In this document: piece after piece, positions 2,822 through 44,131 of the stretch
Position numbering within the stretch: position 1 is the stretch's first letter
How the letters are laid out: each line of letters opens with the position of its first letter
NCBI RefSeq assembly: GCF_900070365.1
Contig: NZ_LN850107.1
Coordinates: 2,604,001 to 2,668,000 of the forward strand
Direction of reading: 5' to 3'
From: Alloactinosynnema sp. L-07
Lineage (GTDB): Bacteria > Actinomycetota > Actinomycetes > Mycobacteriales > Pseudonocardiaceae
DNA length: 64,000 bases
The notes under the pieces: model-generated
What the model was told of the DNA's origin: nothing
Database searches by the model: none
Seen by the model: the letters and a program-made list of their open reading frames with translations, nothing else
Program-made: the position numbers and the translations under genes

Positions 2822-2973
2822 CCTGCGGGCCAATGTATCCAGGATCACCCGGTGGCTAGGCAACGGGCGTCTCCCGATTTGCGGATGGGGTCGCGAGCCT
2901 GCGGGCCAATGGGTTCAGGATCACCCGGTGGCTAAGCAGCGGGCGTCTCCCGGTTTGCGGATGGGGTCGCGAG
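2822..2973. repeat. Two tandem copies of a 76-bp unit at a gene 3' end
   Basis: Copies at 2822-2897 and 2898-2973 differ at only a few bases. The inner copy (2898-2973) contains the last 13 codons and stop of the SDR gene; the outer copy repeats that coding tail, its stop and about 33 bp of flank. The simplest explanation is a recent duplication of the 3' end of the SDR gene into the space before the next gene. Confidence 0.9.
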
Positions 2974-3986: not shown

Positions 3987-4541
3987 TCAGGCGGTCCTGG
4001 CGGCAGGCGGCGCCGCCTGCAGGAATCCGCCGCTGAAGAACATCAGGGCGTCGCGCCCGCCGCCGCGCTGGGCTTCGAGCACCTCCCCGACGAAGATCGA
4101 GTGGTCGCCGCCCTCGTAGTCGTTGGTCAGCGTGCACTCCAGCCAGGCCAGCGCGCCCATGAGCATCGGCGCGCCGGTCTGGCGGCCCGGGACCCAGTCG
4201 ACAGCGTCGAACTGACTGGGTCCCGCGGGCCTTGTCTTGTCGGCGAAGTAGCGCGCGAGCGTGGTCTGCTCGGCGCCGAGGATCGACACCCCGTATCCGC
4301 CCGCGGCCAGGATCGCCTGGTGCATCCGGGCGGTCCGGGCCACGCAGCACAGCACCAGCGGCGGTTCCAGCGAGACCGAGGTGAACGAGTTGGCTGTCAT
4401 CCCGTGGCCGAGCGGGCCGCCCGCGGTGATGACGGTGATCCCGGTGGCGAACTGCCCCATGACCTGGCGCAGTGTGGCCGGGGTCGAACTCGGCTGCGGC
4501 GCGGCGGTCAGATGCCGCACCGGCCCCGGATTGTTGACCAT
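3987..4541 (-). CDS. Flavin reductase, enediyne E6 type
   Basis: A 184-aa single-domain flavin reductase. It shows FATGITVITAGG and TANSFTSVSLEPPLVL near residues 31-70, the FMN-binding split-barrel signature of NAD(P)H:FAD reductases that feed two-component monooxygenases. The closest functional parallel is the E6 flavin reductase of enediyne loci. Start ATG 4541 has a strong GGAGGGG 5 nt upstream. It lies 17 bp after the thioesterase. No obvious flavin-dependent monooxygenase partner is in the window, so the partner must be elsewhere or another oxygenase is served. Confidence 0.85.
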   Translation of the reverse strand: MVNNPGPVRHLTAAPQPSSTPATLRQVMGQFATGITVITAGGPLGHGMTANSFTSVSLEPPLVLCCVARTARMHQAILAAGGYGVSILGAEQTTLARYFADKTRPAGPSQFDAVDWVPGRQTGAPMLMGALAWLECTLTNDYEGGDHSIFVGEVLEAQRGGGRDALMFFSGGFLQAAPPAARTA

Positions 4542-4558: not shown

Positions 4559-5017
4559 CTAGGCCGCGTCCGCGAGCAGTGCCTTCGGCGAGATCCCCGG
4601 ACCGGCGTAGGGCGCGAGCGCCTTGCGCAGCTCCAAGGGGACCCGCGAGGGCACCGTGTTGGTGTTCGGCCCACGCATACAGGCGATGCGCTGCGTTCCC
4701 CTGGCGATCAGGACCTCGCCTTCGAGCTTGACGTAGTCGAAGGTGAACTGGACCTGGGTCTGGGTCAGCTCGTCGAGGCGCATCCGGATGGAGAGCTCGT
4801 CGAACGCGGTGATCTCGGCGAAGAACTCGCACTCGGCCTTCAGCGTGAACAGCTTCAGGTCCTTCTGCACGTCCTCCAGCACCAGCGGGGCCTTCTGCTT
4901 GAGGAACATCTCGCGGCACCTGCCTTGCCAGCGCAGGTAGTTCACGTAGTACACGTTGCCGACGAGATTGGTCTCCTCGAACCCGACGGTGTGCCGGATC
5001 TCGTAGTAGTTCGCCAT
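4559..5017 (-). CDS. Enediyne hot-dog thioesterase (E10 type)
   Basis: A 152-aa 4-hydroxybenzoyl-CoA-thioesterase-like hot-dog protein. The N-terminus reads YYEIRHTVGFEETNLVGNVY, which matches the family: the usual catalytic Asp position is replaced by an ETNLVGNVYY segment typical of enediyne thioesterases. These release the linear polyene from the ACP of PksE. Its ATG overlaps the PksE stop by one base (TGATG), so the two are translationally coupled, the arrangement expected for the PksE/E10 pair. Confidence 0.95.
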   Translation of the reverse strand: MANYYEIRHTVGFEETNLVGNVYYVNYLRWQGRCREMFLKQKAPLVLEDVQKDLKLFTLKAECEFFAEITAFDELSIRMRLDELTQTQVQFTFDYVKLEGEVLIARGTQRIACMRGPNTNTVPSRVPLELRKALAPYAGPGISPKALLADAA

Positions 5018-8000
5018 CAGAGTTCCTCTCCGGACAGAACCGCGAACACGACCGGGTCGGTCCGGTCGTTGACCGTGGTGACCCACGTCGCGATCTTGGC
5101 GTCGCCCGAGGACAACACCACCCAGCCGTCCTGGTGGACCTTGTCGAGGGTCAGTGCCTGGCTGGTGTACCCGGCCTTGCGCAGGGACTCCAGCGCGCTC
5201 CAGATCCGGGTCCCGGTCACCGAGGCCGCCTCGCCGGTCTCGGTGGTGACCAGGTCGCGCAGGGCGATCTGGTCCTGGCCGATGAGCCCGACCCAGTCCT
5301 GCTCGGAGCGCTCGGCGGCGGACTCGACGTCGCAGCCGAGGCGGTTGACCCCGACGATGGCGAAGGTCAGCCCCGCGGCGTGCGATGAGGACACCTGGCC
5401 GCCGTCGATCTCGGGCTTGCCGTCGGGCCGGTGCCGCACGTTCGCGGCCTTGCCCAGGGCCCGGCTGACCGCAAGTTCGGTCTGCGCGCGCCGGTCGGCG
5501 TCCTCGCCGTCGGGTTCGACGACGACGGCCCGCTTGCCGCCCAGGACCTTCTCGAGTGTGCGCTCGAGGTAGGCGCTGAGCATGGTCGGCACCCACGGTC
5601 CGGCCCCGTTGCGGCTGCGGACGCAGCGCAGGACCAGGCCTTCCCAGCGTTCCACCAGGTCGCCGTCCGGGGTGCGGACGTCGACGTCGTAGGTGTAGCT
5701 GTCGCCGTCCTGGAACCGCTCACGGGCGTCCATCACCACGTACTCGGTGTCCGCGGCGGCGCGCTGGGCCAGGTGCAGCTTCTCGATGCCCTGCGGGAGC
5801 AGGATGCCGTCGGGAACGCAGCACTGGATGGCGTGCATGACCGCGTCGCGGGTGCCGGGGTCGGCGAGCAGCCGCTCCTGCGGCAGGTAGGCGGCGAACC
5901 ACGGGGCGGTGGAGCTGGTGCCCAGTTCGGCCACCGCGTGGCGCGCGGCGGCGGTGCGGTAGGCCTGCACCCGCTGGAACCGCTTGCCCTGGAACAGAAC
6001 CGTGCCGTACAACTCGGTGGTCGGGTCGACCGCGACCGCGGGCAGGCCCGAGTCTGGCACCCTGGTGGCGGGCAGGTCCGGCCGGGGCAGTTTCAGCGTG
6101 GCACGGAAGTGGTCGGCGCTGAACCCGGTCTCCTCGCTGCGCAGCGCGACGTCCACCGTCTCGGCGTCGCGGACGAGCGCGGCGAGGCGGATCGTGGTGG
6201 AGCCGCCGGGTCGCACCGCGATCGGCCGGAGGAACTCGACGTTCTCCAGCAGCGGAGCGCCCTTCGGGCCGGTCAGCGCGGTGGCGACCTGGGTCATCGC
6301 CTCCATGCCGATCACCGCGGGGAACAGCAGGTCGCCGTCGAGGAGGTGGTCCTCCAGGTACGGGTCGCTGCCCGCGGACAGCTCGACCTCGCTGACGAGT
6401 TCGACGCCCGGGTAGTGGACGATCACCTGGTCGACGAACCGGCTCAGCGGAAGCTCGACCTCGTCCATCTCCACCGTGGGCAGCCCGGCCGCGCGGCCGC
6501 TGACCACGAGCACCGGACCGGCGTTCGGGTCGGCCAGCACCTCGCGCAGCACCGCGATGCCGTTCTCGGTGGAGATCGGGGTGATGCCGTCGCGCATCAG
6601 GGCCTCGACCACGCCGAGTTTCTCGCCCATGCCCGCCCCGGACCAGACCGACCATTCCAGCGCCAAGGCGCGGGCTCCGGGGTGGTCCTCGGCGAACTTG
6701 ACCGTCAGCTCGGACATCCAGTCGTTGGCGGTGGAGTAGTGCGCCTCACCGCGCAGACCGGCCCGGCCGATGATGCTGCCGAAGGTGACCAGCAGCTTGA
6801 TCTTGTCCTGGTCCACCGCGTCGAGGACCGCCCGCAGACCGGCGATCTTGGGCGCCAAGGTCTTGTGGAAGTCCTCTTCGGACAGACTCGACAGGGCGGC
6901 GGGCTCGTTGCGGCCCGCGCCGTGCAGGAACGCCGTGACCGGGCCGAGTTCGGCCTCGAAGACGGCGACCGCGGCGGCGATGTCCGACGTCGAGGTGACG
7001 TCGGCCCGCTCGTAGCGGAAGGTCACGCCCGCGGCCTCCATGCGGGCCAGGTTCTCCGACAGCTCCTCGTCCTTGGCCGGGTCGGCCCGGCCGAGCAGCG
7101 CGAGCTTGGCCCCGGAGTCCTGCGCCATGGCCAGCGCGCACTCCGCGGTGATGCCCTTGCCGCCACCGGTCACCAGCAGCACGTCGGTCGAGTCCAAAGG
7201 AGACGGTCCGACCGGCCCGGCGGGCGCGGTGAGCGCCCGCAGCACCGGGGAGGTCCGGGTGCCGTCGGTGCCGTAGCGCACCTCGCTGAAGCCGCTGGTG
7301 AACGCGACCTCCTCGACGACGCGGGTCACCGTGTCGGCGACCGAGTCGGCGTTGGAGGGCTCGGTGTCGGCAAGGCCGACCACTGTGGTGGTCACCCCCG
7401 GGTTCTCCAGGTGCAGCGTGCGGGCCAGGCCCGAGGCGCCGAGGCGCTGCTGCACCACGACGAACCGGGAACCCGGTTTGCCCGCCACGGCGGCTTGGCC
7501 CGCGGCCAGGAACAGGTCGATGTGCTCCTCGCCGTCGTTGGGCAGGCACAGCAGCACACCGTCGCCGATCGCGGCCTCGGAAAGCGCCTTGCGCAGCGGC
7601 TCGGCCAGCGGGTGACCCGCCGGGGCGAACCCCTGCCACGTGCCGGGCTCGCCGTCGCCGACCTCGACCGGCAGCCGGTAGGACTCGACGTAGTCGACCT
7701 GGAAGGGTCGGACCCACGCGGCGATTCCCGCGACGTCCTTGCCCGGGTCGACGCCGCCGCCCGCGGTGTCGGCAAGGTTGTCGATCAGCTGGGCCAGGTC
7801 GCCCAGGGTGACCGTGGCGAAGTTGGTCGTGGCCGACAGCGCCGGACGGCCCAGCTCCCGGCAGACCTCGTTGATGATCTGGCCCACCGAGATCGAGCTG
7901 AGGTGCAGGTCGTCGAGCGGGTGGGTCTCCGCGGTGACGCTCTCCTGCGGCAGCTCGACGCGCTCGGCGGCGAGCTTGCACAGCAGCTCCAAAGTGGACA

Positions 8001-10815
8001 GTTCGGACTGGCCTGCCGCCGAGGACGAGGGGGATGCGTCCTCGGCGGCCCCCGCGGTCTGCTGAACGGGGATCAGCAGGTGCGCGTCGATGGCGGGCGC
8101 GGCCTCACACGGGCTGGAGAGGAAGGTCATCTCCCCGTCCAGCGCCAGCGGGCGGACGAGCCGGTCGGTGAACAGCGCCGACGCGTCGACCGGGGCACCG
8201 AGCGCGAACGCGGCGGCGATCGCGGTGAACAGCGGGCTCAGCGAGGCGCTGTCGGTGTCCAGGGCGAGCGCAGGCTTGTCGGGGGCGATCTGGGCGAGCA
8301 GCCCGGTGAGCACCCGGCCGGGGCCGACCTCGATGAGCAGGTCGACGTCGCGGGCGGCGCGGGCGGCGGCCTCGGTGAACCGCACCGGCAGCAGCACCTG
8401 CTCCACGAGCAGGGTCCGCAGGTCGGTGTCGGGGTCGAGGACGTCGCCGGTGACCGTGGAGGCGACCTGGCGGGCCAGGCGCTCGAACGGGCGCTCGGCC
8501 AGCCGCGCGGTCATGGCGTCGGCCGCGGGCTTGACCAGCGGCGAGTGGAACGCGTGCGAGACGTTGATGCGGGTCGCGGTGACACCCTCGGCCGAGGCCT
8601 TGGCGCACACCTTCTCCACTTCCTCGGCCGCACCGGAGATGACGGTCTGACCGGGGCTGTTGAACCCGGCGATGACCACGTCGGAGCCCGCCATCAGGCG
8701 CAGCGCGCCCTCCGGCTCGACCGCGAGGCCCGCCATCGCGCCGCCGCCGTGGCTGGCCTGCGCCATGACCTGACCGCGGATCTTGGCCAGCTCCTGCACC
8801 TCGGACCCGCCCATCGCCCCGGCCCAAGCCAGGGCGGTGAGCTCGCCGAGGCTGTGGCCAACGGCGATATCGGCCTCGACGCCCACGGCGTGCAGCACGC
8901 GCAGACCGGCCAGCGAGCCGGTGACGATGCGCGGCTGGGCGACCTCGGTGGCGACCTGGTCGCCCGCCAGGGTCACGGCCTGGAATACCTGGTCGGCCAC
9001 CGGGAACCGGCGGCGGATGGCGCCGACGGCGCCGCGGCCGGAGCCCTGGCCGGGGAACAGGAACGCCAGCTTCGGCGCCACCGTCCGGTTGTCCAGGAAG
9101 ACGCCCTCGACCGGCGAGAACAGCGTGGTCTCCCCCGCGTCGAGCAGGGTGACCAGCTTCTCCAGCTTGCGGGCCGCCTCCTCGGCGTTGCTCGCCAGGA
9201 CCGCCGCGCGCAGCGGACGGCCCGCCAGCTCACCGGCCAGGGTGCCCGCGAGGTCGCCGAGTTCGGCGAAGGAGAGCTTGGTGACCAGCGCGGCCACCCG
9301 CGACAGCTGGTCGCGCAGCTCGGCGGCGTCGGCGGCGTCGAAGAGGAACAGCTCGACGTCCTGACGGCTGGACACCAGGGTGCCGGTGCGCCGGGTCAGC
9401 TCGGTGCGCCGGGTGACGCCCGCTGCTTGCTCCAACGCGATGTGGGTGTTGATGCCGCCGAAGCCCATCGCCGAGACACCCGCGCGCAGCGGGACGTCGG
9501 TCGGGAACAGCTCGGCCGACTGCGGCACGTACATCGGCGCGTTCTCGGCCTCCAGCAGCGGGTGCGGGGCCTTCTGGCCCGTGCCCGGCGGGATGACCTG
9601 GTTGTGCAGCGCCAAGGTGGCCTTGATCAGACCGGCGATGCCCGCGGCGGCCTTGGCGTGGCCGATGTTGCCCTTGATGGTGCCAAGGGCGGCCGGGCGC
9701 GCGGTCGGGTCGGCGAGGCTGCGGGCGGTGGACAGCGCCTCGATCTCGGTGGCGTCGCCGACCGCGGTGCCGGTGCCGTGGCCCTCGAAGTAGGACACGG
9801 TCTCCACGCCGTAGCCCGCGCGGTTGTAGGCGCGGGACAACGCGAGGCGGTGTCCGGCCTCGGCGGGGCGGGTGATGCCGCCCTTGCCGTCGGAGGAGAT
9901 GCCCCAGCCCGAGATGCAGGCGTAGATCTTGCCGCCGCGGGCCACGGCGTCCTCTTCGCGCATGAGCACGACGACGCCGGAGCCCTCGCCCGGCCAGAAG
10001 CCGTTGGAGTCCTTGTCGTAGACCTTCATCTCGCCGGTGGCCAGCGCACCGGTCTTCGCGAAGCCGATCACCTCGAACGGGTCGATCGACAGGTCGACAC
10101 CGCCCGCGATGGCCACGTCCATGTCCCGGTCGACCAGCGCCTTGGCGGCGGTGGCGATGGACAGCAGCGAGGACGAGCAGGCGCCGTCGACGGTGTAGCC
10201 GCCGCCGCCGAGGTCGAAGTGGTTGCAGACCCGGCCCGCGATGGTGTTCGCCAGGCCACCGGCGAGGGTGTCCTCGTCGAACAGCGGGAACGGCGCCTTG
10301 TACTGCGCCTCCAACTCGGCGAGGAAGGCGGTGGTCTCGTCCTCCGACCAGCCCTTGCCCGCCAGGGTGTGCGCCACGGTGCGCCGCACGTAGGGCCAGC
10401 GCACCCGCATGATGTTGGCGCGGGAGAACTCACCGGTCAGGCTGTTGCCGAAGACGACGCCGGTGGCCGCCTTGGGCAGCCCCTCCCCTTCCGGGAAGCC
10501 CGCGTCGGCCAGGGCCTGGGTCGCCACGTCGAGGGCGAGCCAGTGGGTCAGGTCGGTCGACCGGAAGGTGCTTCCGGCGATCTTGTACTTGACCCGGTCG
10601 AACTCGAAGTCCTTGAGCACGGCCGCTTTGCTCGCGTAGAAGCGGTCCGGCGCCTTCGGGTCGGGCGACCAGTAGTCGGCGTGGTTCATCCGCTCGTCCG
10701 GAAGCCGCCGGAACGCGCGGCGGCCGGACAGCACGTTCTCCCAGAGCTCCGCCGGGGAACTCGCATCGGGATAACGAAGGCCGATGCCGACGATCGCGAT
10801 CCGTTCACTGCTCAT
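5017..10815 (-). CDS. pksE: Iterative enediyne polyketide synthase PksE
   Basis: A 1932-aa type I iterative PKS with the diagnostic enediyne order. The KS occupies residues 1-460 (Cys213 in GACSSS, His346 in EGHGTG, His386 in GNIGHAK). The AT spans about 585-900 (GHSLGE, Ser655; FHSP). The unusual ACP at 940-1015 has the Ser pair at 973/974 in LHLSSISVG. The KR lies at 1205-1445 (TGGGKGI, Ser1347, Tyr1360) and the DH at 1475-1740 (His1490 in EDHLLDG, Asp near 1657). The C-terminal phosphopantetheinyl transferase covers about 1750-1932 (Asp1829, WSALESLRKAG). It should make the conjugated polyene precursor of the warhead from malonyl-CoA and self-activate its ACP. I use ATG 10815; the frame extends to 11004 without homology. 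All catalytic residues I looked for are present. Confidence 0.97.
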   Translation of the reverse strand: MSSERIAIVGIGLRYPDASSPAELWENVLSGRRAFRRLPDERMNHADYWSPDPKAPDRFYASKAAVLKDFEFDRVKYKIAGSTFRSTDLTHWLALDVATQALADAGFPEGEGLPKAATGVVFGNSLTGEFSRANIMRVRWPYVRRTVAHTLAGKGWSEDETTAFLAELEAQYKAPFPLFDEDTLAGGLANTIAGRVCNHFDLGGGGYTVDGACSSSLLSIATAAKALVDRDMDVAIAGGVDLSIDPFEVIGFAKTGALATGEMKVYDKDSNGFWPGEGSGVVVLMREEDAVARGGKIYACISGWGISSDGKGGITRPAEAGHRLALSRAYNRAGYGVETVSYFEGHGTGTAVGDATEIEALSTARSLADPTARPAALGTIKGNIGHAKAAAGIAGLIKATLALHNQVIPPGTGQKAPHPLLEAENAPMYVPQSAELFPTDVPLRAGVSAMGFGGINTHIALEQAAGVTRRTELTRRTGTLVSSRQDVELFLFDAADAAELRDQLSRVAALVTKLSFAELGDLAGTLAGELAGRPLRAAVLASNAEEAARKLEKLVTLLDAGETTLFSPVEGVFLDNRTVAPKLAFLFPGQGSGRGAVGAIRRRFPVADQVFQAVTLAGDQVATEVAQPRIVTGSLAGLRVLHAVGVEADIAVGHSLGELTALAWAGAMGGSEVQELAKIRGQVMAQASHGGGAMAGLAVEPEGALRLMAGSDVVIAGFNSPGQTVISGAAEEVEKVCAKASAEGVTATRINVSHAFHSPLVKPAADAMTARLAERPFERLARQVASTVTGDVLDPDTDLRTLLVEQVLLPVRFTEAAARAARDVDLLIEVGPGRVLTGLLAQIAPDKPALALDTDSASLSPLFTAIAAAFALGAPVDASALFTDRLVRPLALDGEMTFLSSPCEAAPAIDAHLLIPVQQTAGAAEDASPSSSAAGQSELSTLELLCKLAAERVELPQESVTAETHPLDDLHLSSISVGQIINEVCRELGRPALSATTNFATVTLGDLAQLIDNLADTAGGGVDPGKDVAGIAAWVRPFQVDYVESYRLPVEVGDGEPGTWQGFAPAGHPLAEPLRKALSEAAIGDGVLLCLPNDGEEHIDLFLAAGQAAVAGKPGSRFVVVQQRLGASGLARTLHLENPGVTTTVVGLADTEPSNADSVADTVTRVVEEVAFTSGFSEVRYGTDGTRTSPVLRALTAPAGPVGPSPLDSTDVLLVTGGGKGITAECALAMAQDSGAKLALLGRADPAKDEELSENLARMEAAGVTFRYERADVTSTSDIAAAVAVFEAELGPVTAFLHGAGRNEPAALSSLSEEDFHKTLAPKIAGLRAVLDAVDQDKIKLLVTFGSIIGRAGLRGEAHYSTANDWMSELTVKFAEDHPGARALALEWSVWSGAGMGEKLGVVEALMRDGITPISTENGIAVLREVLADPNAGPVLVVSGRAAGLPTVEMDEVELPLSRFVDQVIVHYPGVELVSEVELSAGSDPYLEDHLLDGDLLFPAVIGMEAMTQVATALTGPKGAPLLENVEFLRPIAVRPGGSTTIRLAALVRDAETVDVALRSEETGFSADHFRATLKLPRPDLPATRVPDSGLPAVAVDPTTELYGTVLFQGKRFQRVQAYRTAAARHAVAELGTSSTAPWFAAYLPQERLLADPGTRDAVMHAIQCCVPDGILLPQGIEKLHLAQRAAADTEYVVMDARERFQDGDSYTYDVDVRTPDGDLVERWEGLVLRCVRSRNGAGPWVPTMLSAYLERTLEKVLGGKRAVVVEPDGEDADRRAQTELAVSRALGKAANVRHRPDGKPEIDGGQVSSSHAAGLTFAIVGVNRLGCDVESAAERSEQDWVGLIGQDQIALRDLVTTETGEAASVTGTRIWSALESLRKAGYTSQALTLDKVHQDGWVVLSSGDAKIATWVTTVNDRTDPVVFAVLSGEEL

Positions 10816-11147
10816 ACCTTCACCGCCTCTGGACTGAAATGGACCATTGCCTGACCGCGCCCGATGGGTCACAATTTTGAATAAGTCGCGGTTCCAATGG
10901 TCATAATTTATGGCTTCGCGATGCCCAGTTTGCTGGCGGAAAGCAAACATTGTCGTCTCCGTCCGTGCGCGCACCCCGGACGCCCCCGGACACCCACCCC
11001 ACAACCCCCCTATTTCGGACGCTTACTCCGAACGTGCCCTCTTGGCCGCGCCCGCCGATATTCGCCAGTCGCGTCAGTACCATCTGCAGATTCACGGAAC
11101 CGCAATATCGGAGAATATCCCCGTCGCCTTTCCGAAAAGGACAGCAG
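10816..11147. promoter_or_regulatory. 332-bp divergent promoter region of pksE and the plus-strand membrane gene
   Basis: No gene is supported here. Positions 10870-10915 are clearly more AT-rich than the surroundings (AATTTTGAATAAG and TCATAATTTATGG), as expected for a pksE promoter or regulator-binding segment. I could not assign a confident -35/-10 pair on either strand. The frame upstream of pksE is open but has no recognisable start or homology. Confidence 0.45.
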
Positions 11148-12122
11148 ATGAGCAGCAGCGACACCCGGCACGCCCGTGGCCCATCCGTCCCCGCAGCCAC
11201 CGATCCGTCGGCGCTCGGCCCCTTCCCCAGCCGCAAGGGGCTGGTGATCGGCCTGAGCGCGCTCGTCGGATTCCTGCTCACCGTGGCGTGGTCGGCGAAG
11301 TTCGTCGACAGCACGATCGGCGACACCATCGCCAACGGCATGCTCGGCCACGACGCCAAGGCCACCGCGATCAGCGGCGTCGGCGCCGGGATCGCCTTCG
11401 CGTTCGTCACCGGCGTCGCGGGCACCTTCACCGCGTGCAACATCGCCGTGTTCGGTGCCATGGCGCCGGTTCTGGGCACCACCGACACCCGGATGGGCAG
11501 GCTCAAGGCCACCTTGAAGCCGTTGCTGTGGCTGTCGGTCGGCATGACAGCGGTCTCCGCGGGCTACGGCGTGCTCGTCGGCGTCGTCGGCACGAACATG
11601 CCCCAGTTCTCCACCGCCAAGAGCGTCGCGGGCCAGCTGTCGGCCCGCAGTGTTCAGTCGCTGGTGGTGTTCGGGCTGATCGGCCTGATCATGATCTACC
11701 TCGGCCTGGCCGCGGCCGGTGTCGTGCGCGACCCGTTCGCCAAGATCTCGCGGCGCTTCCCCAACGCGCGCATGGTGTTCCTCGGCGCGCTGATCGGCGC
11801 CTTCCTCATCGGCAGGCCCTTCGGCCTGTTCCGGGCGCTGTTCCGCGACGCCGCCGAGAGCGGCAACCCGCTCTACGGCGCCGCCGCGTTCACCCTGCAG
11901 TCGCTGGGCAACATCCTGATCATGGGCGTGCTGCTGGTGCTGATGGCCACCCTGCTGGGCGGGGCGGTGGGCCGCTGGTTCGCCGCCGACCCGCGCCGGG
12001 TCGCGGTCGTCACCGCGTCGGCATTGATCATCGCCGGGGTGTTCACATTCCTCTACTGGGACGTGCGCATGCTGGCGAACCGGGGCATCCTGCCCTGGTA
12101 CCCGCTGGCGCCCTGGGTGTAG
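11148..12122 (+). CDS. Polytopic membrane protein of the enediyne locus, function unknown
   Basis: A 324-aa protein with about seven predicted membrane helices starting near residue 32. The short loop GVAGTFTACNIAVFGAM around residue 95 contains the only cysteine in the N-terminal half and recalls the helix-loop patterns of CcdA/DsbD-like or sulfur-handling transporters; that resemblance is weak. ATG 11148 has AAAGGA 7 nt upstream. It is transcribed divergently from pksE and ends in its own strong terminator, so it is a separate unit from the UnbL-UnbV-UnbU operon. It could serve transport, self-protection or redox chemistry. Confidence 0.7.
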   Translation: MSSSDTRHARGPSVPAATDPSALGPFPSRKGLVIGLSALVGFLLTVAWSAKFVDSTIGDTIANGMLGHDAKATAISGVGAGIAFAFVTGVAGTFTACNIAVFGAMAPVLGTTDTRMGRLKATLKPLLWLSVGMTAVSAGYGVLVGVVGTNMPQFSTAKSVAGQLSARSVQSLVVFGLIGLIMIYLGLAAAGVVRDPFAKISRRFPNARMVFLGALIGAFLIGRPFGLFRALFRDAAESGNPLYGAAAFTLQSLGNILIMGVLLVLMATLLGGAVGRWFAADPRRVAVVTASALIIAGVFTFLYWDVRMLANRGILPWYPLAPWV

Positions 12123-12147
12123 CGCGACCGCAATAACCGAGTAACAA

Positions 12148-12173
12148 CGCCCCGCCGGGACACCGGCGGGGCG
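12148..12173 (+). terminator. Rho-independent terminator
   Basis: A perfect 11-bp GC-rich stem with the tetraloop GACA is followed by TTTCTCC. It lies 25 bp after the stop of the membrane-protein gene and separates it from the DUF1702 operon. Confidence 0.9.
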
Positions 12174-12272
12174 TTTCTCCATTATTTCCCACCTTGGCGC
12201 CGCAGGCAATACGGAAGATGCACCCCGATATCGGACACCAGACCATGGTCCAAGGAAAGCGGGGTGACATCT

Positions 12273-13283
12273 ATGCCGATTCTCGGCACGCTACGAAGAG
12301 TTCTCCTCACGCCCAAACTCACCGAGGTCAGCTTCGCCGTCCGCGGCTTCCCCGGCGCGGACTCCCCCGCCGCCGAGGCGTTGGAGGCGATTCCGCAGGC
12401 GGTGATCAGCGGATTCGAATGGGGCATCGAGGCCAAGACCCTGTGGGAGGTCGAACGCAAGCTGGCCCTGGTGCGCCAGGAGCAGCGCGGGTTCGCCTAC
12501 GAGGGCGCCGCGATGGCCGCCACCGTGCGCGACGCGATGGCCGGTGGTCGGGGGAAGAAGGCCAAGGAGCTGCTCGGCGGCCCCGGCGCCCCGCACATCT
12601 TCCTCACCTACATCGGCATCGGCTTCGCCATGGCGCGGCTGCCCCGGGTGCTGTGGAAGAAGGTCATCCCCGACATCAGCGAGTCGCCGTACCACCCGAC
12701 CATGACCTGGCTCGCGGTGGACGGCTTCGGCTTCGACCGCGCCTACTTCCAGACCAAGCGGTGGGTCGACGAGCAGCGAGTGCCCAAGCCGTACCCGTGG
12801 GAGGGCTCGCCGGAGTACTTCCTGCGCGCATACGACCAAGGCGTGGGCCGGGCGCTGTGGTTCATCAACGGCGCGCGCCCCGAGGCCGTCGCCAAGGCGG
12901 TGAACGGGTTCGCCGAGCACCGCCGCGCCGACCTGTGGAGCGGGGTCGGCCTGGCCGCGACGTTCGCGGGCGGCGGCGACGAGGCTGGGCTGACCTGGCT
13001 GCGTCAGGCCAGCGGCGCCCACTGGTCCGAGCTGGCGCTGGGTGCGGTGTTCGCCGTCAAGGCCCGCACCTACGCCGGGTTCACCCCGCCGCATTCCGAG
13101 CTCGCCGCGCGCGCGATGGCGGGCCTGACGATCGACGAGGCGGTCGAGATCGCCGACAGCACCGCGGCCGACCCGTGGGGCTCGGGCATCGACCCCGCCT
13201 ACGAGCGCTGGCGCGAGCGCATCCGCACCCGGCTCGTGCAGAGCGTTGTCAGCCAACCATCCGCAGAACGAGTCCACCCGTAA
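12273..13283 (+). CDS. DUF1702 protein, UnbL-like enediyne biosynthesis protein (copy 1)
   Basis: A 336-aa DUF1702 family protein, a conserved component of enediyne cassettes without an established reaction. Characteristic stretches are GFAYEGAAMA, YIGIGFAMARLP and a Trp/Tyr-rich middle part (WLAVDGFGFDRAYFQTKRW). It is clearly paralogous to the next gene, with the same motif order throughout. I place the start at ATG 12273 (GGGGTGA 6 nt upstream); GTG 12264 is an equal alternative. It leads a tight five-gene operon with UnbV-, UnbU- and P450-like genes. Confidence 0.88.
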   Translation: MPILGTLRRVLLTPKLTEVSFAVRGFPGADSPAAEALEAIPQAVISGFEWGIEAKTLWEVERKLALVRQEQRGFAYEGAAMAATVRDAMAGGRGKKAKELLGGPGAPHIFLTYIGIGFAMARLPRVLWKKVIPDISESPYHPTMTWLAVDGFGFDRAYFQTKRWVDEQRVPKPYPWEGSPEYFLRAYDQGVGRALWFINGARPEAVAKAVNGFAEHRRADLWSGVGLAATFAGGGDEAGLTWLRQASGAHWSELALGAVFAVKARTYAGFTPPHSELAARAMAGLTIDEAVEIADSTAADPWGSGIDPAYERWRERIRTRLVQSVVSQPSAERVHP

Positions 13284-13297
13284 AGGGGGAGAGTCAG

Positions 13298-14296
13298 TTG
13301 GGCACAGCATGGCGCGCGCTACGGCGCCGGATCCTGACCCCGAGCACGTCGGAGACCTTGCTCGACGTCCGAGGGTTCCACAAGAAGAGCCCCGAGGCCC
13401 AGGAGAACCTGGAGACCGTCGGCCGCAGCTTCCTGGAGGGCTACGCGCACGCCGCGGAGGCCGCCACCGTCAGCGAGGCCGCGGCGCGGATGGACGAGAT
13501 CCCGCCGTACTACCGCGGTTTCGCCTATGAGGGCGCGGGAATGGGGTTCGCGGTCCGCGACGGACTGCCGCTGGGTCCCACGAACCTCACCGACAAGTTC
13601 CTCGCCGGTGAGGGCGACAAGCACGTCTACATGGTCTACGTCGGCATCGGCTGGGCGATGGCCAGGCTGCCGCGCTTCCGCTGGCCCAAGGCGAAGAACC
13701 TGGACCCGCTGCTGAGCTGGCTGGTCCTCGACGGGTACGGCTTCCACCAGGCCTACTTCAAGACCAAGCGCTACATCGACGAGCAGTACGTCGACCCGCG
13801 CTTCCCGTGGCCCGGTGGCGATTACTCCAAGACCACCGAGGCGACCTCGTACGCCAACCGGGCTCTGGACCAGGGGATCGGCCGGGCGATGTGGTTCATC
13901 GGCGGCAGCGACGGCGAACTGGTCGCCAAGATGATCAACAAGTTCCCCGAGCACCGCCGCGAGGACCTCTTCGCGGGCACCGGGCTCGCGGCCACCTACG
14001 CCGGTGGCGCCGACGAGTCCGAGCTGCTGCGCTACCGCGACCTGGTGGGCCAGTACCAGCCGGTGGTGAGCCAGTCCTCGGCGTTCGCGTCGGAGGCCAG
14101 GGTCCGGGCCGGGCTGGTCATCCCGCACACCGAGATCGCGTCCCGAGTGTTCTGCGGACTGTCCCCTCAGGACGCAGCGCAAGTCACCCACGATGCCCGT
14201 CGCGGCCTGCCGGCCGACGGCGAGCTGCCCGCCTATGAGGTCTGGCGCCAGCGCGTCGCAGGCCAATTCGTTTCACTGGGAGGTGTGAGTCGATGA
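13298..14296 (+). CDS. DUF1702 protein, UnbL-like enediyne biosynthesis protein (copy 2)
   Basis: A 332-aa second DUF1702 protein, 14 bp after the first. It shares GFAYEGAGMGF, YVGIGWAMARLPRF and VLDGYGFHQAYFKTKRY with it. The start is a rare TTG at 13298, supported by GGGGGAGA 6 nt upstream and by alignment of the N-terminus (LGTAWRALRR) with LGTLRR of copy 1. No ATG or GTG fits the homology. Its TGA overlaps the next ATG (ATGA). Two diverged copies in tandem suggest a heteromeric complex or separate steps in warhead formation. Confidence 0.88.
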   Translation: MGTAWRALRRRILTPSTSETLLDVRGFHKKSPEAQENLETVGRSFLEGYAHAAEAATVSEAAARMDEIPPYYRGFAYEGAGMGFAVRDGLPLGPTNLTDKFLAGEGDKHVYMVYVGIGWAMARLPRFRWPKAKNLDPLLSWLVLDGYGFHQAYFKTKRYIDEQYVDPRFPWPGGDYSKTTEATSYANRALDQGIGRAMWFIGGSDGELVAKMINKFPEHRREDLFAGTGLAATYAGGADESELLRYRDLVGQYQPVVSQSSAFASEARVRAGLVIPHTEIASRVFCGLSPQDAAQVTHDARRGLPADGELPAYEVWRQRVAGQFVSLGGVSR

Positions 14297-16206
14297 CCGC
14301 CAAACCTGGATGGCTGCACAGGCAGCTTCCTGGGATCATCGCTTTGGTCTTGGTGGTGACCACGTTCATGGTGGCCCGCCTGCCGGAGACCTCGGCGGCC
14401 GAGAAGTCGGTGATGGCCAAGGACTTCAAGTTCAGCCCGATGTCCATCGCCATGCCGAGCGGCTTCAAGCAGCAAGAGGTCCGCAAGGTCAACCAGGACT
14501 ACAAGCACATCGACGCGTGGATCTCGTCGGTCGGCGCGGCCATCGCGATGAACGACGTCGACGCCGACGGTCTGCCCAACGACCTGTGCATCACCGACCC
14601 GCGCATCGACCAGGTCGTGGTGACGCCGGTGCCGGACCGCAACGGCGACCGCTACCCGCCCTTCGCGCTGAACCCCGGCGTGCTGCCGATGAACGGCCAG
14701 ATCGCCCCGATGGGCTGCCTGCCGGGCGACTTCAACGAGGACGGCCGGATCGACCTGCTGGTCTACTACTGGGGCCGCACGCCGATCATCTTCTACACCA
14801 AGCCGGGGGCCAAGAAGCTCGACCCCGACTGCTTCGTCGCGGTGGAGCTGGTGCCCACCTCCACCAGCGGCATCTACGAGGGCCCGCAGTGGAACAGCAA
14901 CGCCGTCACCTATGAGGACTTCGACGGCAACGGCCACGCCGACATCCTGATCACCAACTACTTCAAGCACAGCCCGGTGCTCGACGACCGGGTCGCGGGC
15001 GGCGTCGAGATGAACGACTCGATGTCCGACGCGCGCAACGGCGGTGAGGACTACTTCTTCCTCAACCAGGGCAAGGGCAAGTTCACGATGGTGGACGACG
15101 CGCTGCCGGTGGAGGTCTCCAAGGGCTGGGAGCTGGGCGCGGCCTCGGCCGACATCGACGGCGACGGCCTGCCCGAGCTGCACCTGGCCAACGACTTCGG
15201 CCCCGACCACCTGCTGCACAACAAGTCCACGCCGGGCAAGCTGGCCTTCGAGGAGATCCGGGCCTACGGCTCGCCGGTGGTCCCCAAGTCCAAGCAGATC
15301 GGCAACGACTCGTTCAAGGGCATGGGTGAGGACTTCGCCGACCTCGACGGCGACGGTCTCTACGACCTGTTCGTCTCCAACATCACCACATCGTGGGGCA
15401 TCGAGGAGAGCAACTTCCACTTCCTGACCAAGGCCAAGGACCAGACCGACCTGCGCAACAAGCTCAACGCGGGCGAGGCGCCGTTCGACGACGTCAGCGG
15501 CAAGGTCAACACCGCCTGGTCGGGCTGGGGCTGGGACGTCAAGGCCGGTGACTTCACCAACCAGGGCGTCAACCAGGTCGTGCAGGCCACCGGCTTCGTC
15601 AAGGGCTACGTCAACCGCTGGCCGCAGCTGCAGGAACTGGCCACCGCCAACGACCAGCTGCTCATCGACCCGGTCTTCTGGCCGAACGTGACCCTCGGCG
15701 ACGACGTCGGCGGCGACCACACGATGAAGTTCTTCGTGCGCGGCGCGGACGGCCGCTACGCCGACCTGGCCCCCGAGTTGGGCCTGGCCATCCCGGTGCC
15801 CACCCGCGGTGTCGCCACGGGTGACGCCGACGGCGACGGCAGGCTCGACTTCGCCATGGCCCGGCAGTGGGACCAGCCGGTGTACTACCGCAACGAGGCG
15901 CCCAACGTGGGCAAGGCGATCACCCTGTGCCTGTTCCACGAGGACACCCCCGGCTCCCCGGTCGTGGGCGCGCAGGCCGTCGCCACCCTCCCCGACGGCC
16001 GCAAGGTCATCGGCCGGGTCGACGGCGGCGGCGGGCACTCCGGCAAGCGCAGCAACGACATCCACCTCGGCCTCGGCGACGTGTCCGGGCCGGTCCAGGT
16101 GCACCTGACCTGGCGGGACCGCGCGGGCCAGCGCCAGGAACAGGATCTGCAATTGACCCCGGGCATGCACGCGCTGTTGCTCGGCGCCCAGGCGAAGGAG
16201 AAGTGA
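14293..16206 (+). CDS. unbV: UnbV-like FG-GAP/ASPIC protein of enediyne biosynthesis
   Basis: The 637-aa protein has an N-terminal membrane anchor or signal segment (about residues 14-30). FG-GAP/VCBS calcium-binding-type repeats follow: DVDADGLPND, DFNEDGRIDLL, DFDGNGHADIL, DIDGDGLPELH, DLDGDGLYDLF and DADGDGRLDF. The C-terminal ASPIC/UnbV domain is at about 545-630. It should sit outside the membrane or be membrane-tethered. UnbV-type proteins are conserved in enediyne cassettes, but their biochemical role is not settled. It overlaps the upstream gene by 4 bp and ends 3 bp before the UnbU-like gene. Confidence 0.92.
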   Translation: MTAKPGWLHRQLPGIIALVLVVTTFMVARLPETSAAEKSVMAKDFKFSPMSIAMPSGFKQQEVRKVNQDYKHIDAWISSVGAAIAMNDVDADGLPNDLCITDPRIDQVVVTPVPDRNGDRYPPFALNPGVLPMNGQIAPMGCLPGDFNEDGRIDLLVYYWGRTPIIFYTKPGAKKLDPDCFVAVELVPTSTSGIYEGPQWNSNAVTYEDFDGNGHADILITNYFKHSPVLDDRVAGGVEMNDSMSDARNGGEDYFFLNQGKGKFTMVDDALPVEVSKGWELGAASADIDGDGLPELHLANDFGPDHLLHNKSTPGKLAFEEIRAYGSPVVPKSKQIGNDSFKGMGEDFADLDGDGLYDLFVSNITTSWGIEESNFHFLTKAKDQTDLRNKLNAGEAPFDDVSGKVNTAWSGWGWDVKAGDFTNQGVNQVVQATGFVKGYVNRWPQLQELATANDQLLIDPVFWPNVTLGDDVGGDHTMKFFVRGADGRYADLAPELGLAIPVPTRGVATGDADGDGRLDFAMARQWDQPVYYRNEAPNVGKAITLCLFHEDTPGSPVVGAQAVATLPDGRKVIGRVDGGGGHSGKRSNDIHLGLGDVSGPVQVHLTWRDRAGQRQEQDLQLTPGMHALLLGAQAKEK

Positions 16207-16209
16207 GTC

Positions 16210-17172
16210 ATGGCCGAGACCAAGGCCGCTCCCGCAGCGGTTCGGCATGATCCGAAGGTCACCATGGCGTTGCGCAACTTCGCCATGTCGATCACGGTGT
16301 TCAACATCCTCGGTTACCTGCTGCTCGGCTTCGAGCAGCCGTGGATCTGGCCGCTGGTGGCCCTGGCCACCGGCTACACCGTCGAGCTCGGCCTGGAGAA
16401 GCTCGGCGCCCGCGCCGAGGGCCGCGACCCGCGCTACGCGGGCGGCGGGTTCAAGGGCCTGATGGTGTTCCTGTTCCCCGCGCACATCACCAGCCTCGCG
16501 GTGAACATGCTGATCTACGTCAACGACCGGATCTGGGTGCTCATCTTCGGTGTCACCCTGGCCGTCGGCGCGAAGTGGATCCTGCGGGCTCCGGTGAAGG
16601 GCCGCATGCGGCATTTCATGAACCCGTCGAACTTCGGCATCGCGATGATCCTGCTGCTGTTCCCGTGGGGCTCGATCGCGCCGCCGTACCACTTCACCGA
16701 GCACACCTCGGGCTGGGTGGACTGGCTGATCCCCGGTCTGATCATCATCGGCGGCACGATGATCAACGGCAAGCTGACCGGCCGGATGTGGCTGATCGCG
16801 GGCTGGGTGGGCGTGTTCGCCGCCCAGTCGATCGTCCGCGGCTGGCTGTTCGACACGTCGATCCCGGCCGCGCTGGGCATGATGACCGGCGTCGCGTTCA
16901 TCCTGTTCACCAACTACATGATCACCGACCCCGGCACGTCCCCGTCGAAGCCGTGGGCGCAGTTCGCCTTCGGCGGCGGTGTGGCGCTGGCCTACGGCGT
17001 GCTGATCGTGGCGCACGTGGCGTACAACATCTTCCTCGCCACCGCGTTGGTGTGCCTGATCCGGGGCTGCTTCCACTGGACGGTGCACTTCATCAACAAG
17101 TCCAAGGTGTCGGCGCCCCCGGTCACGCTGGTGCCCGCGGCGACCGTCACCACGGAACCGAAGGCGGCCTGA
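16210..17172 (+). CDS. unbU: UnbU-like membrane protein of enediyne biosynthesis
   Basis: A 320-aa integral membrane protein with roughly eight to nine helices. Its motif FMNPSNFGIAMILLLFPW near residue 140 resembles the NPS/NPA loops of the NqrB/RnfD electron-transport subunits. That resemblance is my inference; the family is known from enediyne loci as UnbU. Together with the adjacent UnbV-like protein it suggests a membrane-associated step, perhaps redox or export. Gaps to both neighbours are 2-3 bp, indicating one transcript. Confidence 0.9.
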   Translation: MAETKAAPAAVRHDPKVTMALRNFAMSITVFNILGYLLLGFEQPWIWPLVALATGYTVELGLEKLGARAEGRDPRYAGGGFKGLMVFLFPAHITSLAVNMLIYVNDRIWVLIFGVTLAVGAKWILRAPVKGRMRHFMNPSNFGIAMILLLFPWGSIAPPYHFTEHTSGWVDWLIPGLIIIGGTMINGKLTGRMWLIAGWVGVFAAQSIVRGWLFDTSIPAALGMMTGVAFILFTNYMITDPGTSPSKPWAQFAFGGGVALAYGVLIVAHVAYNIFLATALVCLIRGCFHWTVHFINKSKVSAPPVTLVPAATVTTEPKAA

Positions 17173-17174
17173 CG

Positions 17175-18524
17175 ATGACCCACCCGCGCCGGGTTCCCCC
17201 CGGTCCCCCACGCAGCCAGACGTTCAGCCTGCTCAAGCAGCTCAAGAGCGACCGCCTCACGCTGATGTCCACGGCGGCGGAGACCTACGGGGACGCGGTG
17301 CGGGTGGGCATCGGCCCGAAGACCCTGTATTACTTCAACCACCCCGACCACGCCAAGCACATCCTGGCCGACAACAGCGCCAACTACCACAAGGGCATCG
17401 GCTACGTCGAAGCCCGTCGCGCCCTCGGCGACGGCCTGCTGACCAGCGATGGTGCCCTGTGGCGCGAGCAGCGGCGCACGATCCAGCCGGTGTTCCAGGC
17501 CAGGCGGATCAGCGGCCAGGCCGACACGGTCATCGAGGAGGCGGCCAAGCTCGTCGCCCGCCTGCGCACCCGCGAGTCGGGTGGGCCGGTGGACGTGCTG
17601 CACGAGCTGACCGGCTTCACCCTCGGCGTGCTCGGTCGCACCCTGCTCGACGCCGACCTCGACGCGTTCGAGTCGATCGGCCACTCGTTCGAGGCCGTGC
17701 AGGACCAGGCCATGTTCGAGATGGAGACCATGGGCATGGTGCCGACGTGGTTGCCGCTGCGCAGGCAGCGGGAGTTCCGCGCGGCCAGTGCCGACCTGAC
17801 CCGCATCGTCGAGGCGCTGGTGGCCGAGCGACGCGGCAACCCGCGCGACCCGGCCGACGACGTGATCTCCCGGCTGATCCTGTCCACCAAAGAGGAAGCC
17901 GACCCGAAGGTCGCGAGCCAGCGCATGCGCGACGAGCTGATCACGCTGCTGCTGGCCGGGCACGAGACGACGGCCAGCACGGTGGGCTGGGCTCTGTACC
18001 TTGTGGACAAACACCCTGAGGTCGCTCAGCGGCTGCACGAGGAGGCGGTGGCCGTGCTCGGCGACCGCACCCCGGTGCTGGAGGACCTCAAGCAGCTCAC
18101 GTACACCAACATGGTCCTCGAAGAGGCCATGCGGCTGTTCCCGCCGGTCTGGATCCTCACCCGGCGCGCGGTCGAGGAGGACGAGGTCGGCGGCTACCAC
18201 GTGCCCGCGGGGTCGGACGTCATGGTGTGCCCCTACACCCTGCACCGACACCCGGCGTTCTGGGACGAGCCGGAGAAGTTCGACCCGGAGCGGTTCGACC
18301 CGGAACGGCCCAACACGCGGCCGCGGTACGCGTACCTGCCATTCGGCGCGGGCCCGCGCTTCTGCGTCGGCAGCCACCTTGGGCTGATGGAGGCCGCGTT
18401 CGTGGTCTCCATGATCGCCAGGGAGATGCGGATGAAGCTGGTCCCGGACTACCCGGTGGTGCCGGAGCCGATGCTGTCGCTGCGGGTCAAGGGCGGGTTG
18501 CCGATGACGGTGCACTCGCTCTGA
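17175..18524 (+). CDS. Cytochrome P450 of the enediyne operon
   Basis: A complete 449-aa P450 with all signatures: I-helix AGHETT, K-helix EEAMR (ExxR) and heme loop FGAGPRFCVG with the Cys ligand. The sequence style is that of the CYP class with long C-terminal regions (GYHVPAGSDVMV, PERFDPER). It is the last gene of the DUF1702-UnbV-UnbU operon, beginning 2 bp after UnbU. This position, and the existence of an E7 P450 in enediyne loci, suggest it oxidises the enediyne core or an intermediate. No ferredoxin is encoded in the window. Confidence 0.92.
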   Translation: MTHPRRVPPGPPRSQTFSLLKQLKSDRLTLMSTAAETYGDAVRVGIGPKTLYYFNHPDHAKHILADNSANYHKGIGYVEARRALGDGLLTSDGALWREQRRTIQPVFQARRISGQADTVIEEAAKLVARLRTRESGGPVDVLHELTGFTLGVLGRTLLDADLDAFESIGHSFEAVQDQAMFEMETMGMVPTWLPLRRQREFRAASADLTRIVEALVAERRGNPRDPADDVISRLILSTKEEADPKVASQRMRDELITLLLAGHETTASTVGWALYLVDKHPEVAQRLHEEAVAVLGDRTPVLEDLKQLTYTNMVLEEAMRLFPPVWILTRRAVEEDEVGGYHVPAGSDVMVCPYTLHRHPAFWDEPEKFDPERFDPERPNTRPRYAYLPFGAGPRFCVGSHLGLMEAAFVVSMIAREMRMKLVPDYPVVPEPMLSLRVKGGLPMTVHSL

Positions 18525-19819: not shown

Positions 19820-19977
19820 CGACACTCCTTTTCGGGGTCGATGTGTGTTCGGAGCGGACCCGCCAACTGTTCAGTCGGGTGATGAATTCGTCCGGTTTCG
19901 ATCCCGGATGAACACCGGGGCCCTCGGCGCCGAATGCACTGCGCAAGGTTTCCGGAAGTCGAGAACAGGGAGCACTC

Positions 19978-20853: not shown

Positions 20854-20880
20854 GGCCGGGGGTTCGGCGGCGCGGCGGTC

Positions 20881-24168: not shown

Positions 24169-24231
24169 CGCCAAGATCACCGCGGGTCGCCGTGCCGGGC
24201 GGACCGCACATCGCGACGAGAGGTGGGCGTG

Positions 24232-26813: not shown

Positions 26814-26936
26814 TGTGGAACCCCTACCCCCATTAGCAGGTACCAGTTGACAATTACCGGCGTCCAGACGGGCGTAAATCAGACACGTGGAAGGTGGTAC
26901 AAACAACATGGGTCGGGCGGGCGAAGGGTGCGTGAA

Positions 26937-27542: not shown

Positions 27543-27583
27543 CCCACTGCCCCACAGTCGTTTGCCACTGGCACAAACAGATG

Positions 27584-29818: not shown

Positions 29819-29838
29819 GCTAGTGGCCCAAAGCGAGG

Positions 29839-44129: not shown

Positions 44130-44131
44130 CC

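Follow-up and report, generated by a model that had tools for sequence, protein, structure and literature searches.

The window studied here, a stretch of 64,000 nt (bases 2604001–2668000 of a single-contig genome of 7,405,112 bases), almost certainly carries a chromosomal enediyne warhead gene cluster of the nine-membered type, and embedded in that cluster lies a cassette (26964–36291) in which a YcaO heterocyclase, an azoline dehydrogenase and a candidate precursor peptide are encoded beside two membrane histidine kinases and a LuxR-type response regulator. The cassette probably belongs to the enediyne cluster functionally, and our explanation of the locus as a whole, which we put forward tentatively and with less than even confidence, is that of an enediyne cluster with an embedded azole-peptide signal cassette acting as a switch. 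This account is built on gene content, enzyme families, the signature of the precursor, a recurring architecture and linkage of the cassette to enediyne genes in 8 genera. The enediyne core and its accessory genes are ordinary for their lineage; the novelty is the azole-peptide/two-component cassette, which many enediyne clusters of the family Pseudonocardiaceae carry. A sequence-only reading of this DNA had recognized the enediyne core, and that part stands, but it had overlooked the cassette to the right, which is the odd part of the locus. Enediynes are natural products that cut DNA. The relatives of its enediyne polyketide synthase (PksE) indicate that the window most likely comes from an Actinokineospora (Pseudonocardiaceae), a soil actinomycete.

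A putative azole-peptide cassette embedded in an enediyne gene cluster

The cassette sits inside the enediyne set, between a carboxymuconolactone-decarboxylase (CMD)/AhpD-like gene and an AraC-type regulator gene, and consists of the genes below. Gene calls and start positions come from our own codon-score script; Pfam scans covered each of the 49 genes called in the window, and NCBIfam scans were also used.

26964..27542, + strand, LuxR-type response regulator (PF00072 and PF00196; 98% in Actinokineospora xionganensis)
27584..29818, − strand, membrane histidine kinase, double (two HisKA_3 stretches; transmembrane (TM) segments by hydropathy)
29888..32095, − strand, membrane histidine kinase, double (two HisKA_3 stretches; TM segments by hydropathy)
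32299..33807, − strand, SagB/ThcOx-type azoline dehydrogenase (PF22767; TIGR03605; CyaGox 8e-52)
33842..36106, − strand, LynD/TruD/MusD-type (cyanobactin-type) heterocyclase, YcaO (TIGR03882, TIGR03604; LynD 1e-170)
36106..36291, − strand, candidate precursor peptide, 61 aa (directly upstream of YcaO with a one-base overlap; leader IDRFEQW)

The YcaO protein includes a leader-binding domain (TIGR03882, 148.7 bits; TIGR03604, 286.7 bits; both above their cut-offs) and aligns to LynD over residues 7–752 of 754, with further matches to MusD and TruD, all among solved structures. The SagB/ThcOx protein scores 118.3 bits with TIGR03605 against a cut-off of 78.4, which places it among the FMN-dependent azoline dehydrogenases, and by their sequences the two enzymes look like a working azoline/azole-forming pair. 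Compared with the cyanobactin enzymes LynD, TruD, MusD and CyaGox, YcaO is thus a near whole-length homologue of LynD and the dehydrogenase a homologue of CyaGox, but the cassette has a different precursor and a two-component system instead of a protease or macrocyclase: no PatA/PatG-type protease or macrocyclase was found among the Pfam-scanned genes of 25770–42772. Clusters for linear azol(in)e-containing peptides (thiazole/oxazole-modified microcins, TOMMs) share the TIGR03882 and TIGR03604 heterocyclase, the TIGR03605 dehydrogenase and a short precursor, whereas our cassette has no transporter and occurs within or beside other biosynthetic clusters together with a kinase, a LuxR regulator and often a SARP. 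With peptide pheromone two-component systems it shares the placement, in the window, of a peptide gene next to a membrane histidine kinase and a response regulator.

The 61-aa open reading frame (ORF) matches no Pfam family and nothing above cut-off in NCBIfam. Short ORFs upstream of YcaO relatives nevertheless share a leader motif, approximately (I/V)(D/E)xF(D/E)xW and often followed by xNP, after which comes a variable core rich in S/T/C. Of 39 YcaO genes from Pseudonocardiaceae, 23 are preceded by the strict motif, vs 19 of the 506 genes called in the loci retrieved, and a looser form precedes 23/39 vs 23/506, the motif having been composed after examples were seen and the 506-gene control including the YcaO genes. 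In 13 precursors (12 from enediyne-linked loci plus that of Actinokineospora fastidiosa), Cys is absent from 450 leader residues and present 13 times in 372 core residues, and Ser, Thr and Cys together make up 12% of leaders and 26% of cores, or 12% and 23% once the A. fastidiosa precursor, with its WPTT repeat, is set aside. Between the window and A. xionganensis, 24 of 40 leader positions are identical and 6 of 23 core positions. Because a conserved leader followed by a variable, Cys/S/T-rich core is the signature of a ribosomal-peptide precursor, we treat this ORF as a candidate precursor.

Linkage of the cassette to enediyne clusters

We searched 297 genomes of the family for YcaO (E ≤ 1e-80) and for DUF1702 (1e-40), a protein of the enediyne core, and found YcaO in 85 genomes (97 loci) and DUF1702 in 113. 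For at least 29 of the 97 YcaO loci the distance to a DUF1702 gene is no more than 40 kb, and for at least 22 of these no more than 10 kb, where we estimate fewer than 1 by chance at about 9 Mb per genome; these counts are lower bounds because the DUF1702 coordinates, listed for 77 of the 113 genomes, reach down only to about 1e-94. The linked loci come from at least 29 genomes in at least 8 genera, including at least 20 genomes of one genus, g32 (Amycolatopsis where names matched), and of the 22 g32 genomes for which a DUF1702 gene is listed, 20 have a YcaO gene within 40 kb of it. Among 48 named PksE-bearing genomes (80 loci), 20 carry YcaO; none was found in the PksE-bearing Nocardiopsis (9 searched), Streptomyces (4), Kitasatospora (1) or Salinispora (2).

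The architecture recurs as well. The usual g32 order is DUF1702, AraC, LuxR, kinase, SagB, YcaO, SARP, HxlR, and at the loci viewed on both sides (L154/L155, L160 and L161 of genomes G256, G206 and G226) the gene that follows is homologous to the membrane protein gene at 24229, so that enediyne-type genes flank the cassette on both sides there as they do in the window. Actinokineospora has the same units in another arrangement, with the cassette again between enediyne-type genes, and in a draft A. fastidiosa genome (L164) the cassette stands with the GMC-to-HxlR genes while PksE is on a different contig. We compared cassette content across 17 enediyne-linked and 21 unlinked Pseudonocardiaceae YcaO loci, from genomes that share ancestry: an AraC gene stands beside the cassette in 17/17 linked vs 0/21 unlinked loci, and an HxlR gene in 16/17 vs 0/21.

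A second, reduced enediyne locus was seen beside a full-looking cassette in Actinokineospora alba (G014, 6105001–6140000, L144–L145). Its PksE copy, of 1503 aa, shows no match to the ketosynthase (KS) part, it has one DUF1702 gene, and UnbV, UnbU, P450 and GMC had no match in the 35 kb examined; a fuller enediyne locus lies elsewhere in that genome.

The cassette as a possible switch

In the mechanism that we envisage, the LynD-like heterocyclase would act with the SagB/ThcOx oxidase to convert Ser, Thr and Cys residues of the precursor to azolines or azoles, and the modified peptide would leave the cell by general export routes. The adjacent membrane histidine kinases would sense it and signal to the LuxR response regulator, which would in turn activate the enediyne genes, via SARP in most linked relatives and via AraC/HxlR in the window. 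That the cassette product is a peptide signal turning on the enediyne genes is possible though doubtful, and we infer its export, its sensing and its transcriptional target.

The components of such a system occur together in both sets of loci. Among the 17 linked loci, matches were found to the kinase in 14, LuxR in 15, SagB in 16 and a SARP beside YcaO in 12; among the 21 unlinked loci, to the kinase in 18, LuxR (at ≥66%) in 18, SagB in 16 and SARP in 14. Farther afield, six of seven matching Streptomyces plasmids carry YcaO (45–52% identity) amid other biosynthetic genes, accompanied by genes for a kinase and a response regulator, and in five of these six a small annotated ORF lies directly upstream of YcaO. 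The host clusters are three of the phenylalanine-aminomutase kind (ketosynthases seen in one), one tryptophan-halogenase/adenylation, one VlmB-like/ketosynthase and one ketosynthase/AMP-ligase cluster. On one such plasmid (L189, Streptomyces sp. NBC_00335) a second pair, YcaO–TfuA, with its own two-component system was observed a few kb from the cassette.

As a control for neighboring markers we used 40 random segments taken from eight of the genomes, and three near-duplicate loci were removed for a recount. SARP matches occurred at 14/21 unlinked loci vs 1/40 random segments (12/18 without near-duplicates), the SARP markers themselves being derived from YcaO-cassette loci. A ketosynthase was near 4/21 unlinked cassettes vs 0/40 (p 0.011; 4/18 in the recount, p 0.007), and a ketosynthase, AMP-ligase or P450 near 9/21 vs 4/40 (p 0.006). 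A modified peptide encoded with a kinase, a LuxR regulator and often an activator, beside chemically different clusters, suits a signal better than a common building block. More broadly, though we consider this somewhat unlikely, the cassette could represent a new class of actinomycete autoinducer, in which a LynD/CyaGox-like pair would produce an azole-modified ribosomal peptide and a dedicated membrane kinase and LuxR regulator would perceive it, forming a portable switch acquired by different biosynthetic clusters, including the enediyne clusters of the 20 g32 genomes counted above and that of the window. Among the titles and abstracts listed in searches of open-licence PubMed Central (PMC) papers we found neither a description of an azole-peptide autoinducer of this kind nor a report of a YcaO/azole-peptide cassette in an enediyne cluster; the terms ‘YcaO’ and ‘enediyne’ co-occur in a single paper.

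The enediyne core and its relatives

The core was compared with the annotated locus for C-1027 (lidamycin) on the Streptomyces globisporus plasmid SGLP1 (NZ_CP013739); percentages below are identities to the C-1027 counterpart, and counts out of 80 give the named PksE loci with a match within 10 kb of PksE. PksE comprises KS, acyltransferase (AT), carrier, ketoreductase (KR), dehydratase (DH) and phosphopantetheinyl transferase (PPTase) domains.

3987..4541, − strand, flavin reductase, E6 type (PF01613; best solved structures 4r82 and 4hx6; 55% to SgcE6)
4559..5017, − strand, E10-type thioesterase (76%; solved-structure matches)
5017..10815, − strand, PksE, KS-AT-carrier-KR-DH-PPTase, 1932 aa (Pfam, alignment, motifs)
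11148..12122, + strand, membrane protein, ~7 TM (no Pfam/NCBIfam family; hydropathy; 16/80 loci)
12273..13283, + strand, DUF1702 protein 1 (PF08012 7e-138; 57%)
13358..14296, + strand, DUF1702 protein 2 (PF08012 1e-125; 52%)
14293..16206, + strand, ASPIC/UnbV/CRTAC1-type protein (PF07593, PF13517; 59%)
16210..17172, + strand, UnbU/RnfD-like membrane protein (no Pfam hit; named from its C-1027 RnfD-like counterpart, 66%)
17175..18524, + strand, cytochrome P450 (PF00067; 61%)

The stretch 4559–18524 is supported as a complete, intact-looking enediyne core, with the flavin reductase just outside it, and the match quality is far beyond chance. The five-gene enediyne polyketide synthase (PKS) cassette is present (PksE, E10, DUF1702, UnbV and UnbU types), and the gene calls, together with Pfam/NCBIfam and C-1027 matches, bear out the E10-, E6-, UnbV-, UnbU- and P450-type flanking genes named in the sequence-only reading. 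The same holds for its claim that all PksE catalytic residues looked for are present. KS (DGACSSS, EGHGTGT), AT (GHSLGE, SHAFHS), KR (TGGGKG, YSTAN) and DH (DHLLDG) motifs were found; the carrier (LHLSS) and C-terminal PPTase-type domains (CDVE, WSALESLRK) were recognized by motif and had no Pfam hit; and the second KS His, missed by the pattern search, is the invariant column H386 in a 12-sequence alignment. The solved structures that E10 matches best are 4i4j (‘ACP-polyene thioesterase’, 6e-70), CalE7 (6e-62) and DynE7 (3e-35). PksE would build a polyene chain with the carrier domain and phosphopantetheinyl transferase that it contains, E10 would release it, and the DUF1702, UnbV, UnbU, P450, flavin-reductase, DUF5987, GMC and CMD genes would convert the chain into the enediyne, roles that we carry over, as an assumption, from C-1027-type clusters.

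The window PksE is 53–57% identical to the best Streptomyces plasmid PksEs (54–55% to that of C-1027 itself). In a tree of 97 PksE sequences, with some genomes represented twice and a set that does not contain kedarcidin, neocarzinostatin, maduropeptin or amycolamycin sequences, it belongs to a clade with support 1.0 whose 44 sequences come from Pseudonocardiaceae and Nocardiopsis, with one from Streptomyces, one from Kitasatospora and some unlabelled; the C-1027 sequences lie outside, and among the sequences compared the clade has no characterized member. The best 120 of 5649 protein matches are 67–96% identical, the 96% match being a metagenome-assembled genome protein named Actinokineospora sp., and no characterized enediyne PKS appears by (shortened) name among those 120. 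This PksE lineage is widespread, mostly in Pseudonocardiaceae, and is abundant rather than an oddity.

In PMC5181780, exclusive presence of E2 or R3 is given as predicting a nine- or ten-membered ring. The tandem DUF1702 pair of the window parallels the tandem pair of C-1027 in order, which points to the nine-membered class, an assignment based on this order. The product may be new, but PMC8037709 describes amycolamycins from Amycolatopsis sp. HCa4 with an annotated acm cluster, and for that reason the window's lineage may already have a known product. The acm cluster, as described there, shares the enediyne core genes E and E2–E11 and others and also comes from a Pseudonocardiaceae strain, but at about 76 kb it includes aminosugar, methylsalicylate and chloro-mandelate genes, none of which were seen in the window, the comparison being one by description (PMC8037709). 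The A. xionganensis HBU206404 locus is syntenic with small gaps from a gyrase-like pair to beyond HxlR, cassette included, and its PksE is 85–86% identical to that of the window. We know of no product for this A. xionganensis locus.

Accessory genes and borders

The remaining genes of the enediyne set, which spans about 234–39799, are as follows.

234..1775, − strand, acyl-CoA carboxylase carboxyltransferase subunit; left edge (PF01039; 29/80 loci)
1994..2785, − strand, TIGR03084/mycothiol-isomerase-like protein (TIGR03084 above cut-off; 56%)
2932..3966, − strand, extended short-chain dehydrogenase/reductase (SDR) (PF01370; 18/80 loci; no match in the C-1027 stretch)
21596..22162, + strand, DUF5987 protein (PF19449; 68%)
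22159..23805, + strand, GMC-type oxidoreductase (PF00732, PF05199; 76%)
24229..24798, + strand, conserved membrane protein (64% to a protein of the C-1027 stretch; 17/80 loci)
24804..25445, + strand, DUF6239 membrane protein (PF19752)
25770..26813, + strand, CMD/AhpD-like protein (PF02627; 45%)
36928..37305, + strand, thiamine pyrophosphate (TPP) decarboxylase alpha-like subunit (TIGR03845 below cut-off)
37302..37889, + strand, TPP decarboxylase beta-like subunit (TIGR03297/TIGR03846 below cut-off)
38068..38844, + strand, AraC-type regulator (PF12833; 51% to the C-1027 AraC gene; 61/80 loci)
38963..39799, − strand, HxlR-type regulator; right edge (PF01638; C-1027 match over 37% of length only)

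We infer that the carboxyltransferase supplies malonyl-CoA. The SDR, TIGR03084 and GMC/DUF5987 genes had been taken for unusual extras, in a combination not recognized from C-1027, a view not borne out by the C-1027 plasmid. Its annotated PksE surroundings share with the window the TIGR03084, DUF5987, GMC, CMD-like and AraC genes, as well as PksE, the E10 thioesterase, two DUF1702, CRTAC1/UnbV, RnfD-like/UnbU, SgcE6 flavin reductase, P450 and membrane protein genes, and 14 of the 31 called genes in 234–39799 match the C-1027 locus at 45–76% identity over ≥85% of gene length. Since the annotated plasmid carries them too, we rejected the idea that the extras are unusual: they are the usual accessory set of such clusters, and among the 80 named loci matches near PksE number 52 for GMC, 55 for DUF5987, 33 for TIGR03084, 45 for CMD and 18 for SDR. 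Gene order differs between the two loci, and the carboxyltransferase, the SDR, the membrane protein at 11148–12122, DUF6239, the TPP pair and the azole-peptide cassette have no match in the C-1027 stretch. Nor do the genes at 18582–21426, between P450 and DUF5987, where a sigma factor/anti-sigma pair and DUF4394 and MerR genes were observed; these have no match at the A. xionganensis locus either, and 13 of the 80 loci show a MerR match near PksE. The split TPP pair (36928–37889) is of the sulfopyruvate/phosphonopyruvate type, at scores below the cut-offs, and in the 17 linked and 21 unlinked loci compared it is confined to four Actinokineospora loci, which have no SARP beside YcaO.

C-1027 is known to have an apoprotein and peripheral moieties, whose genes were not seen in the window. 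No NRPS (non-ribosomal peptide synthetase), deoxysugar or anthraquinone set was found among the 49 Pfam-scanned window genes, in agreement with the sequence-only reading, and for the apoprotein the negative extends to the whole genome, where the neocarzinostatin type (PF00960) had no match at E ≤ 0.001.

On the right, the AraC and HxlR genes still belong to the enediyne set, AraC because of its matches near PksE in most of the 80 loci and its identity to the C-1027 AraC gene. In PMC2657911, SgcR2 of C-1027 is described as AraC/XylS-type. Beyond this border, 43068–51373 is occupied by a small cluster of its own (genes for a periplasmic binding protein, a FecCD permease, an ABC ATPase, a PvcA-like protein of the isocyanide synthase type, P450, asparagine synthetase, and a major facilitator superfamily (MFS) protein) with no match in the A. 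xionganensis stretch, and 52946–58204 holds consecutive MoxR-type ATPase, DUF5682, VWA/CoxE and DUF5691 genes.

The suggestion that the cluster might continue leftward is not supported by the sequence there: the next 17 kb hold ordinary genes (among them those of a mycothiol-S-transferase-like protein, an aldo/keto reductase and an FtsK-like protein) followed by a GyrA/GyrB-like pair, and a lipid-type PKS locus lies farther off. The GyrA-like and GyrB-like genes (genome 2587072–2592614) each contain an intein-like insert (Hint domain; Intein_splicing domain); since the A. xionganensis matches cover just 82% and 71% of their lengths, the inserts appear to be absent from its counterparts. The lipid-type locus (genome 2571192–2584272) comprises an AMP-ligase, a single PKS, an MFS protein, a secretory lipase, an esterase and a carboxyltransferase. 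Its PKS (2573719–2580093) was considered as a naphthoate-type synthase of the enediyne cluster and rejected: with KS, AT, DH, KR, two carrier stretches and a thioesterase, and with AMP-ligase, MFS, lipase and carboxyltransferase neighbors, it looks like part of a separate lipid pathway.

Discussion

Several observations weigh against a cassette that switches on the enediyne genes. A kinase match is missing from linked loci L149, L160 and L161, a LuxR match from the last two as well, and a SagB match from L151; because some linked cassettes thus lack a kinase or regulator, we slightly reduced the probability given to the signal role. A SARP beside YcaO is missing in Actinokineospora, the strict leader motif was not found upstream in 16 of the 39 YcaO loci, and no dedicated exporter or processing protease appeared among the Pfam-scanned genes of 25770–42772. 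Upstream of 41 precursors, in a search from which four near-duplicate loci had been removed, no shared DNA site was found; the repeated 10-mers there are not palindromes and are presumed to be SARP coding sequence. When near-duplicates and one locus-derived marker were taken out, the trio of ketosynthase, AMP-ligase or P450 fell to 6/18 vs 4/40 (p 0.055). The distribution of the cassette adds to this: no listed DUF1702 gene lies near 68 of the 97 YcaO loci, and in 394 class-wide genomes, many of them drafts, no YcaO–DUF1702 linkage was found outside the family (YcaO in 24, DUF1702 in 18, on the same contig only in the window genome and on different contigs in four others). In the YcaO tree the linked sequences form two groups (support 0.98 including A. 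fastidiosa, and 1.00), the second of which also encloses an unlinked sequence. The tree suggests one or two captures, and the loci share ancestry.

That shared ancestry in one or two YcaO clades, and the confinement of the linkage to the family, are what would be expected if it were a relic of chromosomal position with no functional meaning. The cassette has, however, been kept although the surrounding enediyne gene order differs between Actinokineospora and Amycolatopsis, and it remains with the GMC-to-HxlR genes in A. fastidiosa, so that we find a relic improbable. Rather unlikely, too, is an independent azole peptide, antibiotic or other, under its own two-component control and kept nearby for joint inheritance or action. 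The heterocyclase, dehydrogenase and precursor of such a pathway are all there, most YcaO loci lie away from any listed DUF1702 gene, and the three linked loci without a kinase match retain YcaO and SagB; but the Pfam-scanned cassette includes no exporter, immunity or protease gene, and enediyne-type genes stand on both of its sides, retained through rearrangements.

Two further alternatives would make the peptide part of the enediyne product or its partner. An azole peptide might be attached to the enediyne or aid its DNA binding, replacing the sugar, beta-amino-acid or naphthoate decorations whose usual genes are absent among the Pfam-scanned window genes, and the position of the cassette within the cluster and the variation of precursor cores between species would fit such a hybrid. 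There is no obvious ligase, and similar kinase-bearing cassettes adjoin chemically unrelated clusters, which fits a common switch better than a building block; we regard a hybrid as having little probability. Even less can be said for a modified peptide that, as a carrier, takes over from the missing apoprotein the task of sequestering the enediyne. The genome has no PF00960 gene, but two cassette-linked genomes, G275 and G234, do, about 23 and 26 kb from YcaO, and a precursor length of about 60 residues, with some 20 in the core, is little for a carrier, so that we consider this very improbable.

Were the hybrid true, it would be, as far as we know, the first between a ribosomal peptide and an enediyne. 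For the switch that we tentatively prefer, the consequences concern regulation. Many enediyne clusters are silent in culture, and to our knowledge little is known of how they are switched on outside C-1027-type Streptomyces. Signaling in actinomycetes is known mainly for butyrolactones and furans. If the cassette does make a peptide signal, this could add a new class to actinomycete signaling, the cassette could serve as a marker by which further clusters controlled in this way are found, and the dependence on such a signal could explain the silence of enediyne clusters in the Pseudonocardiaceae.

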